Of a stretch of 64,000 nt of DNA, positions 41,534-47,603 are shown piece by piece. This DNA is from Halobaculum gomorrense (GTDB lineage: Archaea; Halobacteriota; Halobacteria; Halobacteriales; Haloferacaceae). Location of the stretch: NCBI RefSeq assembly GCF_900129775.1, contig NZ_FQWV01000001.1, positions 331,780 to 395,779 of the forward strand. Reading direction: 5' to 3'. How positions within the stretch are numbered: position 1 is the first letter of the stretch; each line of letters opens with the position of its first letter. A program made the position numbers and the translations under genes. The notes below the pieces were generated by a model. That model saw nothing but the letters and a program-made list of their open reading frames with translations. It was not told the DNA's origin and made no database searches.

Positions 41534-43144
41534 ATGGGACCACGAGAACCACGGACGGACGACGGCGTGAACGAGACCGGACGCTCGAGAACACGGGCGG
41601 ACGGAGGGATCGCGGACACCGGTGGATCCGTCGGGGCAGGACCGCCGACCGCCGACTCATCGGGGCTCGCGGTGACCGACGCCACCCGGCGCGGCGTCGA
41701 CGGCGCCGACCTGGCAGAGCGGCTCGGCCTCGACGCCGCCGACATCGAGAAGCGCAAGCGATTCAGTAGACTCACGCCGAGCGACGAGGAGACGCTCTCG
41801 TCGCTCGAACCGCTCCTCGAGGAACTCGCGCCGGCGTTGGTCGACGAGTTCTACGACCACTTCACCGACCACGAGGAGACGAACGCCATCTTCGGGCGGT
41901 CGAGTAAGGGGATCGAGGCGCTCAAGCGAACCCAGCGCCAGTATCTGACCGATCTCGGCGGCGGCGACTACGGACGGGATTACTTCCAACGACGCGCCCG
42001 GATCGGGAAGATCCACGACATGCTGGACCTCGGGCCGCGGGTGTACTTCTCGGGGTACAGCGTCTACTACGAGGGGCTGTTGAACGCGCTCGCCGACGAG
42101 GCGCGGGAGACGGCCGGAGTCGAACCCGGGTCCCCGGGCGAGGAGGCACTCTCGCGGTTCACCGACCGCCTGCTCCCGCTGTTGAAGCTGCTGTTGTTGG
42201 ACCAACAAGTCGCGATGGACACGTACATCGACTCGTACGCAGAGCAGATGGAAACGGAGATCGAGCGCCGTCGCGAGCTGACCACGGAGGTCTCCGAGGA
42301 GGTCGAGGCCCCCCTCGAGGAGATCGGTGCCGGCGCCGTCAACGTCGCCGAGAACGCCGACGAGCTGGCGGCGTTGGCGGAGACGCAGGCGGATCGGATG
42401 GGCGACGTGGAGGCGGAGGTGGGGACGCTCTCCGCGAACGTCGAGGAGGTCGCCGCCAGCGCCGAGCAGGTCGCACACGTCTCCGCCGACGCCGAGCGGC
42501 TCGCCGAGGAGGGCGTCGACGCCGCCGGCGAGGCCCGCGACACGATGGAGGACATCGAGAACGCGACCGACGAGGTGACCGACGACCTCGACGAGCTCCG
42601 CGACCGCGTGGGCGAGATCGACGAGGTCGTCTCGGTCATCGACGGGATCGCCGACCAGACGAACCTGCTGGCGCTCAACGCGAACATCGAGGCCGCACGC
42701 GCCGGGGAGGCGGGCGACGGCTTCGCGGTCGTCGCGGACGAGGTGAAGAGCCTCGCCGAGGAGTCCCAACAGCGGGCCGGAGAGATCGAAGCGCTCGTCG
42801 AGAACATTCAGACGGGCGCCGAGGACACCGTCGAGAGCCTCGAACGGACCGAAGAGCGGATCCAAGGCGGCGTCGCCCGCGTCGACGAGGCGATGGAGCG
42901 ACTCGATAGCATCGCCGAGGCGATCCGGGAGGCGGCCTCCGGCGTCGAGGAGGTCGCACGAGCGGCCGACTCCCAGGCGTCGACGACCGAGGAGGTCGCG
43001 TCGCTGGTCGAGGAGGCCAGCGGCGAGGCGGCCGCGGTTCGCCGCACCGTCGAGGAGATCGCGGAGGCGGCCGACGCCCAGCGCGCTCGCCTCGACCGCG
43101 TTACCGACTCCGTCGGCCGACTCACCGACGGGTCCGACCGCTGA
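41534..43144 (+). CDS. hemAT: HemAT-type globin-coupled aerotaxis transducer
   Basis: 536 residues, soluble (no membrane segment). Residues about 60-240 form a globin sensor: SDEETLSSLEPLLEELAPALVDEFYDHFT, and the proximal heme ligand His161 in RRARIGKIHDML followed by LGPRVYFSGYSVYYEG. The rest is a methyl-accepting signalling coiled coil with the hairpin tip IADQTNLLALNANIEAARAGEAGDGFAVVADEVKSLAEES, which binds CheA/CheW. It senses oxygen and signals to the archaellum motor. The first 55 residues are a disordered, low-complexity extension. Confidence 0.94.
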   Translation: MGPREPRTDDGVNETGRSRTRADGGIADTGGSVGAGPPTADSSGLAVTDATRRGVDGADLAERLGLDAADIEKRKRFSRLTPSDEETLSSLEPLLEELAPALVDEFYDHFTDHEETNAIFGRSSKGIEALKRTQRQYLTDLGGGDYGRDYFQRRARIGKIHDMLDLGPRVYFSGYSVYYEGLLNALADEARETAGVEPGSPGEEALSRFTDRLLPLLKLLLLDQQVAMDTYIDSYAEQMETEIERRRELTTEVSEEVEAPLEEIGAGAVNVAENADELAALAETQADRMGDVEAEVGTLSANVEEVAASAEQVAHVSADAERLAEEGVDAAGEARDTMEDIENATDEVTDDLDELRDRVGEIDEVVSVIDGIADQTNLLALNANIEAARAGEAGDGFAVVADEVKSLAEESQQRAGEIEALVENIQTGAEDTVESLERTEERIQGGVARVDEAMERLDSIAEAIREAASGVEEVARAADSQASTTEEVASLVEEASGEAAAVRRTVEEIAEAADAQRARLDRVTDSVGRLTDGSDR

Positions 43145-45108: not shown

Positions 45109-45930
45109 CTACCGACCGAACAGCCGTGCCAGCCGCCCGCTCGACCGCTCGCCGCCGATTTCTGCGTCCGCGCGGAACCGATCGACGGCGTCGTCGTCGA
45201 CGCCGGCGGCGTCGAGCCGAAGCGTGTCCGCCTCGCCCTCGGTCTCGACGACGACCTCGCGCCCGCGAGTGGCCGCGTACACGCCCATGAGCGCCGCGCC
45301 GAGCAGCAGGGAGAGCGCACCGAGAACGCGGAGCACGTCGTCGACGAGCGAGAGCACCGAGAGCACGCTCCCGACCATCGAGAGGAGCCCGCCCAGCCCG
45401 GCGGCGCCGGCGCCCTCCGGCGTCGTCGCGCGCATCGAGTCGAGCGAGACCATCGAGCCGCCGAGCACCATCGCCAGGCCGCCGCCGACCGCGTACGCGA
45501 TGGGGCGGACGAGCCAGTCGGTCGCCGTCGACGACGGCGACACGTCCGTGACGTTGACGCGGTGGACCGCCCGGAGGGTCGCGCGCTCGTCCGGGTCCGC
45601 GTCGGGCGCGAACGCGAGCACGCGGTGGCTCGTCGCCACGAGCCGCCCGTCGGCGACCGGGAGGCTCGCGCGGACCTCCTCGCCGGCGTACAGCAGCGAC
45701 TCGACGGAGTCCGTCCCCGAGGTCGCTCTCGCGTCGCCGCCGCGTCCGGCGGCGCCGCTGGCGTCGTCGGTCGAGCCGAGAGAACCGGGGTCCGTGAGCG
45801 GCGACGGCTCGGCCGGCGAGACGACCGTGTCGGCGTCGTCGGCGCCGTCGGCGCCGAACGCGACGCCCCCATCGCCGGTCGTCGGGTCGCGGTCATCGTC
45901 CGCGTCGCCTCCGAAGTCGAAGCCGCCCAT
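45109..45930 (-). CDS. Two-helix membrane protein of the actin operon (PH-like domain)
   Basis: 273 residues. An acidic, disordered N-terminus of about 75 residues precedes a beta-rich stretch (LLYAGEEVRASLPVADGRLVATSHRVLAFAP) like the bacterial PH / short-PH membrane-linked domains. Two to three membrane helices follow (around PIAYAVGGGLAMVLGG, LLSMVGSVLSVLSLV, VLGALSLLLGAALMGVYAA), then a soluble tail. It is the third gene of the operon, eight nt after the actin homologue, and could anchor the filament to the membrane. Identity of the PH-like domain is by pattern only. Confidence 0.72.
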   Translation of the reverse strand: MGGFDFGGDADDDRDPTTGDGGVAFGADGADDADTVVSPAEPSPLTDPGSLGSTDDASGAAGRGGDARATSGTDSVESLLYAGEEVRASLPVADGRLVATSHRVLAFAPDADPDERATLRAVHRVNVTDVSPSSTATDWLVRPIAYAVGGGLAMVLGGSMVSLDSMRATTPEGAGAAGLGGLLSMVGSVLSVLSLVDDVLRVLGALSLLLGAALMGVYAATRGREVVVETEGEADTLRLDAAGVDDDAVDRFRADAEIGGERSSGRLARLFGR

Positions 45931-45937
45931 CGGTCCC

Positions 45938-47011
45938 TTACTGGCCGGCGAGCTTCTCGGCGATGCGCCGGGCGCCCTCGGCGGCCGCGAGGTCGGGCTC
46001 GTCGGGGACGACCACGTTCACGTCGCGGTCGAGTTCCGCACAGAGCCGCCGTTCGAACTCCTCGGCGAGGCCGGGGATGCACGCCATGCCGCCGGTGACG
46101 GCGATGTCGTTGTTCAGCGAGAGCTGGTACACCTTCATGTAGTCGTTGGCGAGTTCGGGGAGGAACTCGTTGGCGACCTCGTCGACGGCGGCGTCGAGAT
46201 ACCAGTCGAGCGCGTCGACGACGCTGTCCTTGATGGTGAACTCGTGGGAGCCGCCGCCGGGCTGCTGGATCACGTCCGAGAACGGCTCGAAGCCGCCGAC
46301 GTTGCCGTGCTCCTCCTTGTACTCGCGCGCGGTCGTCAGGTCGACGTGGACGCGCCCCTGCGTCTCCTCCTCGACGTTGGCGACGATGCGGCGGTCCACG
46401 TCGTTGCCCGTCACCGAGCCGGTGGAGAACGGTACGAGCTGGTCGCCGCGGCGGTACGCGCAGGCCTCCAGGTTGGTGGAGCCCATGTTCACGGAGATGA
46501 ACACGTCGTCGACGGCCTCGACGCCGTCGCCCATCGCGGGGATGGCGCCGCACAGCGACTCGGGGTACGCGCGCATGGTGTGGGCGCCGATGTCCGAGGA
46601 CTCGATGACCTCGGTGAGGTTCTCTAACCCGGCGTCGTTCTCCATCGTCGGGATGGCGTACACGACCGCCGAGTCGGACGGGACGCCGTTGGCCGAGAGC
46701 AGCTCACGGAAGAATCGGCCGGCGAGCTCCGCGCGCTCGTCGTCCTCCGGGAGCCCTGAGCGGAGCATGTACTCCACGCGGTCCGGGTACTCGGCGGCGG
46801 CCTGCTCCCCGAACAGGGCCTTCTCCTCCCCCGTGATCGCGTCCTCGTACAGCGCGAGGCAGGTGAGCGTTCGCACCGTCGTGAACTCGCCGCTGTCAGC
46901 GTCCTCGGGATACCGAAGCACGGTCCGAGTGGAGCCGAGCTTCACGCCGATGGGGGCCGGGTTGCTGGACTCGAAACTGTCGTCGTCTGCGGATTCGGAT
47001 TCTGCTGCCAT
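45938..47011 (-). CDS. Actin/MreB-family protein, salactin type
   Basis: 357 residues. Actin-fold nucleotide motifs are present: phosphate-1 loop GVKLGSTRTVLRY (residues 22-34), phosphate-2 loop ISVNMGSTNLEACAY, and the adenosine motif VTGGMACIPGLAEEF (305-319). The second loop lacks the acidic D-x-G-G-G-T form seen in DnaK and MreB; the haloarchaeal actin named salactin, from Halobacterium, is the closest known type I can think of. It should polymerise with ATP and help place or divide DNA or cell poles. It lies two bases after a FlaD/E-domain gene and seven before a membrane protein gene. Confidence 0.85.
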   Translation of the reverse strand: MAAESESADDDSFESSNPAPIGVKLGSTRTVLRYPEDADSGEFTTVRTLTCLALYEDAITGEEKALFGEQAAAEYPDRVEYMLRSGLPEDDERAELAGRFFRELLSANGVPSDSAVVYAIPTMENDAGLENLTEVIESSDIGAHTMRAYPESLCGAIPAMGDGVEAVDDVFISVNMGSTNLEACAYRRGDQLVPFSTGSVTGNDVDRRIVANVEEETQGRVHVDLTTAREYKEEHGNVGGFEPFSDVIQQPGGGSHEFTIKDSVVDALDWYLDAAVDEVANEFLPELANDYMKVYQLSLNNDIAVTGGMACIPGLAEEFERRLCAELDRDVNVVVPDEPDLAAAEGARRIAEKLAGQ

Positions 47012-47013
47012 GG

Positions 47014-47472
47014 TTATCGGAGCGCGGCGAGGCGGGCGACGAACAGCAGGCTCGTGCGGTGGTGGCCGACGGAGAGCCGCGAGCCGTCGGTGTCGTCGAA
47101 GGCTTCGAGGTACGCCGTGAGGGCGTCCTCGACGGACTCGTCGAGCCACTCCACGTCCCGATAGAAGGCGAGCGCCTCGCGGGCGCGTTCGCGCCCGCCG
47201 ACGCCGACGAGGTAGCGTAACCAGTCGAGCGCAAGCTGGGTCCCGACCACCGAGTCCGGAAGACTCGGCAGGTAGGGCCTGCTCGCGCCGCCGGCCGCCG
47301 CCTGAAGGAGGAAAGCGTCTTCCACCTGCGCCGCCCGCACGCGCGCGTCCGCTCGACTGAGGAAATCGTCCGGCTGCGTCCACCGGTCCGGTCCCTCGTC
47401 GGCGTGCGTCGGCGCCGCCGCTCCCGTCAACGCTCGCAACTCCTTCGGGTCGTAATCGCTCGGTCTGAGCAT
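47014..47472 (-). CDS. Archaellum FlaD/E-like domain protein (orphan), first gene of actin operon
   Basis: 152 residues. The N-terminal half is acidic and loosely structured (MLRPSDYDPKELRAL). Residues about 67-127 match the archaellum FlaD/E domain: YLPSLPDSVVGTQLALDWLRYLVGV, then ARERAREALAFYRDVEWLDESVEDALTAYLEAF. In archaella this domain forms part of the cytosolic motor ring linking to chemotaxis. No other archaellum gene is near; instead an actin homologue follows two bases later. It may link actin filaments to polar machinery. The ATG is preferred to a GTG six codons upstream. Confidence 0.8.
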   Translation of the reverse strand: MLRPSDYDPKELRALTGAAAPTHADEGPDRWTQPDDFLSRADARVRAAQVEDAFLLQAAAGGASRPYLPSLPDSVVGTQLALDWLRYLVGVGGRERAREALAFYRDVEWLDESVEDALTAYLEAFDDTDGSRLSVGHHRTSLLFVARLAALR

Positions 47473-47603
47473 GTCCTGGTTCGTCCGCACTCCCTGTGCC
47501 GCTACGCTTGCCTACCCGGAACCGTCGTAAATATGTACGCTCCCGAATATCACGGCTGAAATCGGACGCGTGGGAACGGTCGCAGCGACGCTTCGACTGG
47601 CCC

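Follow-up and report, generated by a model that had tools for sequence, protein, structure and literature searches.

The salactin gene usually lies directly behind arlD in haloarchaea, suggesting that this actin filament is tied to the motility hub

The stretch of Halobaculum gomorrense DNA analysed here (the window; 64,000 nucleotides, positions 331,780 to 395,779 of contig NZ_FQWV01000001.1) carries three consecutive open reading frames on the minus strand. We confirmed them between positions 47472 and 45109 of the window, with intergenic gaps of 2 and 7 bases. The locus is the arlD-salactin operon of haloarchaea, and it has the following features:

47528..47533, minus strand: putative promoter of the three genes, a TATA-like element 5' of arlD (sequence inspection)
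47014..47472, minus strand: arlD, short FlaD/E-domain protein of 152 aa (PF04659, E=1.5e-20; the only short FlaD of the genome; groups with ArlD of the Halobacterium arl operon, not with ArlCE)
47434..47472, minus strand: P..YD..ELR motif at the N-terminus of ArlD (no variation among 16 diverse members; low-confidence helix in the model)
47026..47283, minus strand: FlaD/E domain of ArlD, residues 64-149, helical, pLDDT above 90 (Pfam and structure model)
45938..47011, minus strand: salactin, actin-fold filament protein of 357 aa (PF25229, E=8e-173; NF053533, 568 bits)
45109..45930, minus strand: membrane protein of 273 aa with a split PH-like barrel (model and Foldseek; 12 genomes from 5 genera have a homologue 3' of salactin)

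Inspection of the sequence places the TATA-like element about 60 nt 5' of arlD and indicates that the gaps between the three genes are too short for internal promoters. Both the spacing and the element are consistent with a single transcript, and a scan for bacterial-type promoters gave no match, as expected for an archaeon. The second gene had initially been annotated as an actin of the salactin type, and this assignment is confirmed by two curated models: The protein matches the Pfam family PF25229 (Salactin) over its full length (574.5 bits, cut-off 27.1; E=8e-173), and it passes the NCBIfam salactin equivalog NF053533 (568 bits, cut-off 400). It is 96% identical to the salactin of Halobaculum saliterrae. 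Volactin of Haloferax volcanii is also a haloarchaeal actin that forms dynamic filaments; however, it has a role in cell shape (PMC10869688) and belongs to another family, since the window protein reaches only 18.5 bits with the Pfam model Volactin (cut-off 35). About 2 kb past the operon, the window contains a gene for a protoglobin-type chemotaxis receptor, HemAT-like by our reading (41534-43144); among the loci searched, such a gene was otherwise found near salactin only in Halobaculum litoreum. The HemAT receptor, NikR and CBS neighbours were rejected as parts of the system, as they occur near salactin in Halobaculum and Halobonum only, with the exception of one NikR gene about 6 kb from salactin in Halobacterium.

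For the first gene, the profile search revealed the claimed FlaD/E domain at residues 64-149 (PF04659 Arch_fla_DE, E=1.5e-20, 73.3 bits, cut-off 21). The description of this domain as an orphan had to be abandoned, however: The host genome encodes two FlaD/E proteins, the product of gene 1 and a protein of 499 aa that is followed by two archaellin-fold genes. From length and place, we read the 499-aa protein as ArlCE and the two genes as arlF and arlG. One long and one short FlaD/E protein is the pattern in most of 15 named haloarchaeal genomes, and an orphan or new FlaD/E paralogue is ruled out by the observation that the genomes mostly have a single short FlaD, which is gene 1 in this case. 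In Halobacterium, the short FlaD is encoded beside ArlCE, and salactin elsewhere. In a FlaD/E-domain tree built on 105 columns, 32 of 33 proteins encoded next to salactin fall on the side of the Halobacterium ArlD, away from ArlCE, with moderate support (81/83). Gene 1 agrees in domain, size, copy number and tree position with ArlD (FlaD), a cytoplasmic component of the archaellum switch complex ArlCDE, and is therefore arlD; the difference is that it is located here outside the arl operon and 5' of an actin gene. ArlD is needed for archaellation and binds the switch complex, as shown in H. volcanii and H. salinarum (PMC6509185, PMC2666748), and it forms one or two polar foci per cell (PMC6509185). 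Among the open papers searched, we found none that ties ArlD or FlaD to salactin.

The N-terminal motif P..YD..ELR is invariant in 16 diverse members of the ArlD family, and the structure model shows it as a low-confidence helix detached from the FlaD/E domain. The fold of this domain had no significant match in the PDB, either by structure or by sequence. Some variation in the family was observed as well: In ArlD of Halobellus (389-421 aa overall; L018:6748-7917, L063:6582-7847), a very long low-complexity linker rich in Arg and Asp separates the N-terminal motif from the FlaD/E domain. Haloferax species encode an extra short FlaD/E protein (L038:12964-13515, L044:9098-9559), the gene for which is located directly 3' of a second salactin gene in H. 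mucosum.

The third product matched no Pfam family, PH families included. Its structure model is of modest confidence (mean pLDDT 67) and consists of five strands, two long helices, two strands and one helix; the two long hydrophobic helices lie between strands 5 and 6 of a PH-like barrel, and the N-terminus is disordered and acidic. In a Foldseek search of the PDB, two PH domains from bacteria, 3dcx and 3hsa, gave the best matches, with a probability of 1.00, a TM by target of 0.57-0.66 and a best E of 2.7e-3. The proposed PH-like stretch of this protein is thus plausible, within the modest confidence of the model. Homologues are present in 90 of 194 genomes, both with and without salactin, and they lie directly 3' of salactin in 12 of the 97 salactin genomes (five genera, two families). 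This exceeds the expectation for a scattered gene, yet it is insufficient for an anchor role: Because the family is widespread and adjoins salactin in so few genomes, to label the protein an anchor is speculation. The three-gene machine of the initial annotation was therefore over-stated; beyond close relatives, the order of the first two genes is kept throughout the class, whereas the third joins them in some lineages only.

The conservation of the arlD-salactin pair was seen in two samples. In 71 of 80 named loci a FlaD/E gene is located directly 5' of salactin on the same strand; the other nine comprise two loci that end too early, three with the gene nearby in another arrangement and four without a FlaD/E gene, and the pair is thus directly adjacent in 71 of the 78 informative loci. 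In Halorubrum, start-stop overlaps of 4 or 1 bases between arlD and salactin point to translational coupling. In 28 of 32 genera a member of the FlaD family is encoded less than 4 kb from salactin; as an internal control, the next non-overlapping neighbour reaches 9. In an even draw of 194 genomes from the class, with adjacency taken from profile edges, salactin exceeded the cut-off in 97 genomes, and ArlD was encoded directly 5' of it in 77 of these (21 of 27 genera). This number is a lower bound, since closer inspection revealed adjacent genes also in the genomes G109 (convergent), G021 (4-base overlap) and G164 (head to head). These results show that arlD and salactin form a class-wide conserved gene pair, and they contradict the published view that synteny is poor even among Halobacterium genomes (PMC10746226). 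The salactin of H. salinarum, which belongs to the same family by both curated models, was described in that study (mBio 2023) without an informative gene neighbourhood; in Halobacterium, as in some other lineages, the two genes are apart, whereas salactin of the window is tied to arlD.

The two genes are also present and absent together. Among the archaellin-positive genomes, 91 have both an ArlD-type protein and salactin, 5 salactin only, 11 ArlD only and 51 neither, with the ArlD-type threshold set by us at 110 bits. For the archaellated Haloferacaceae, the corresponding numbers are 53, 0, 0 and 10. The Fisher values for this co-occurrence are tiny, but they ignore kinship, and the genomes are related rather than independent. 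Eight of the ten Haloferacaceae genomes with neither gene lack CheF as well; in G065 and G107 of this family, CheF and ArlCE are kept and both ArlD and salactin are absent. Moreover, archaellin was found in 96 of the 97 salactin genomes compared to 62 of the 97 genomes without salactin, and CheF in 95 compared to 33.

That salactin is nearly confined to archaellated, chemotactic haloarchaea might indicate that it belongs to the archaellum machinery proper, e.g. for the control of archaellum number or assembly, with its DNA phenotype being secondary. The genome G116 speaks for this as well. Here the order is cheD, arlCE, arlF, arlG, salactin, arlCE, arlH, salactin, arlCE, arlH (L153:1369-11350; the names arlF and arlG are based on matches to the archaellin fold, arlH on matches of the KaiC type), i. 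e. two salactin genes are located inside the archaellum operon. Salactin has thus become part of the motor operon as well. We nevertheless consider this explanation improbable: The salactin deletion mutant of H. salinarum has normal motility and rod shape, its only defects being in growth at low phosphate and in DNA distribution (PMC10746226), and one clade has salactin without archaella. Archaellin is absent from Halocatena pleomorpha, Actinarchaeum halophilum and YIM A00013, and their single FlaD/E protein is encoded next to salactin. The loss of the archaellum in the hyphal Halocatena/Actinarchaeum group has been published (PMC10067837). The FlaD/E domain of this clade sits on a long branch (1.43), and the N-terminal motif is retained. 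The persistence of the pair in these organisms argues that it serves beyond swimming, and they provide a natural separation-of-function case for a motor protein. A. halophilum (G182, with the same coordinates as G207) has an expanded salactin family of about four genes.

The genomic surroundings of the pair bear on a second alternative, namely that salactin is just a member of the motility-phase regulon that shares a transcript with arlD for timing, the two products never touching each other. In Haloferax larsenii, the gene order is a KaiC-type gene (at the position of cirA), two archaellin genes, an HTH gene (at the position of csmR), DUF7500, cheY, cheC, cheD, arlD and salactin, and the location of the pair behind cheY-cheC-cheD in Haloferax fits with a shared control. 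In H. volcanii, a unit designated ArlD/HVO_1202 rises together with all other arl and che units upon deletion of csmR (2026 paper; PMC13286277). Salactin was detected in H. volcanii in the control row of our search, and the gene order in H. larsenii suggests that HVO_1202 is salactin. Mere co-expression nevertheless seems rather unlikely to us: A regulon predicts salactin beside many arl and che genes rather than beside one, the pair stays together in Haloarcula, Halorubrum, Halobaculum and others although it has moved out of the arl and che clusters there, and it is still present in the Halocatena clade after loss of the archaellum.

Salactin forms dynamically unstable filaments that emanate from the cell poles, as known only from H. 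salinarum; its foci are polar, and monomers join at the inward-growing end rather than at the pole (PMC10746226). The deletion mutant has a DNA partition defect at low ploidy, and a role in DNA segregation has been proposed (PMC10746226). It is conceivable, then, that the pair is a chromosome-segregation apparatus in which ArlD has merely been borrowed as a ready-made polar mark; the retention of the adaptor, on a long branch, after archaellum loss would agree with this. A general segregation role does not predict, however, that salactin is almost confined to archaellated, chemotactic haloarchaea, and we regard this possibility as quite improbable. With dynamically unstable actins of the ParM/Alp7A type salactin would share an unstable filament with an adaptor at one end. 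In contrast to those systems, it has no centromere-adaptor gene, and the candidate adaptor is a motor protein; we therefore do not class it among them.

Outside the Halobacteria, salactin has other partners, and no FlaD/E gene was found adjacent to it there, apart from the case of a distant actin in family f32. In families f14, f15 and f33, salactin is the first gene of a row that also encodes a coiled-coil protein and a ParA/MinD ATPase (for f15, the two genes 3' of salactin were read from order and length); this row of a non-haloarchaeal salactin homologue and the two genes was the same in all five loci compared (L138:5336-7713, L139, L142, L143, L144). In family f18, salactin is located 5' of an archaeal type II prepilin peptidase; L134:5968-9415 and L136 contain a salactin homologue followed by this peptidase (PF06847) and an AAA ATPase, the families having been scanned in L134. 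ParA/MinD ATPases also have a role in polar positioning in a haloarchaeon: MinD2 and MinD4 of Haloferax volcanii act on the polar placement of chemosensory arrays and of ArlD foci, the latter being dependent on both proteins (PMC11588486). They are ATPases and not filaments, but salactin shares a gene row with a protein of this type in some of the non-haloarchaeal genomes. Finally, family f32 combines an MreB-like actin with a following giant protein that starts with a FlaD/E domain (888 or 1939 aa; L145:251-3987, L146:640-7564). This is an independent pairing with an unrelated actin, so that actins and FlaD/E domains have come together on at least two occasions.

The location of the salactin gene, usually directly behind arlD, suggests that the filament is tied to the motility hub. 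Such a link between cytoskeleton and motility hub had been put forward in the initial annotation, and it is now much better supported by the adjacency in 77 of 97 genomes, the joint presence and absence of the two genes and their locations in che and arl operons. There is good support for the coupling of salactin to the hub, while only a tentative outline can be given for the tether and for its cargo, which may be the hub, the chromosome or both. We suggest, with a probability of about one half, that salactin filaments are joined by their static end, through ArlD, to the motility hub at the pole. ArlD, its FlaD/E descendant or an ArlD-containing complex would bind the static end at the pole, and this tether would join the filament to the hub. 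The filament may then help to hold or position the polar hubs or to share them between daughter cells: By growing and collapsing from the hubs at the two poles, filaments would space the hubs and, at low ploidy, the chromosomes too. After loss of the archaellum, the adaptor would have been retained because salactin still requires it. Several observations weaken the proposed coupling by ArlD, i. e. the normal swimming of the H. salinarum salactin mutant (in a genus with a broken pair), the occurrence of ArlD without salactin in 11 archaellated genomes, the existence of salactin outside the Halobacteria without an adjacent FlaD/E gene (the f32 actin aside), and family f6, which retains the N-terminal motif without salactin and thus also weakens the idea that this motif is a salactin-specific hook.

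It is tempting to speculate further that FlaD/E is a recurring archaeal actin-adaptor fold, and that ArlD nucleates or caps salactin at the polar hub so that one apparatus hands both swimming motors and chromosomes to the daughter cells. We regard this extended idea as possible, though doubtful. If it were true, an archaellum switch protein would also serve the cytoskeleton, and this second function would persist after the archaellum is lost. The placement and inheritance of polar motors and chemosensory arrays in haloarchaea is partly explained by the MinD proteins and by unnamed "polar cap proteins". The arlD-salactin pair corrects the view of salactin as a gene without an informative neighbourhood, and its conserved tie merges the polar attachment of salactin with the placement and inheritance of polar motors and arrays into one testable question, which can be addressed in Haloferax, a genus with an intact pair and easy genetics.
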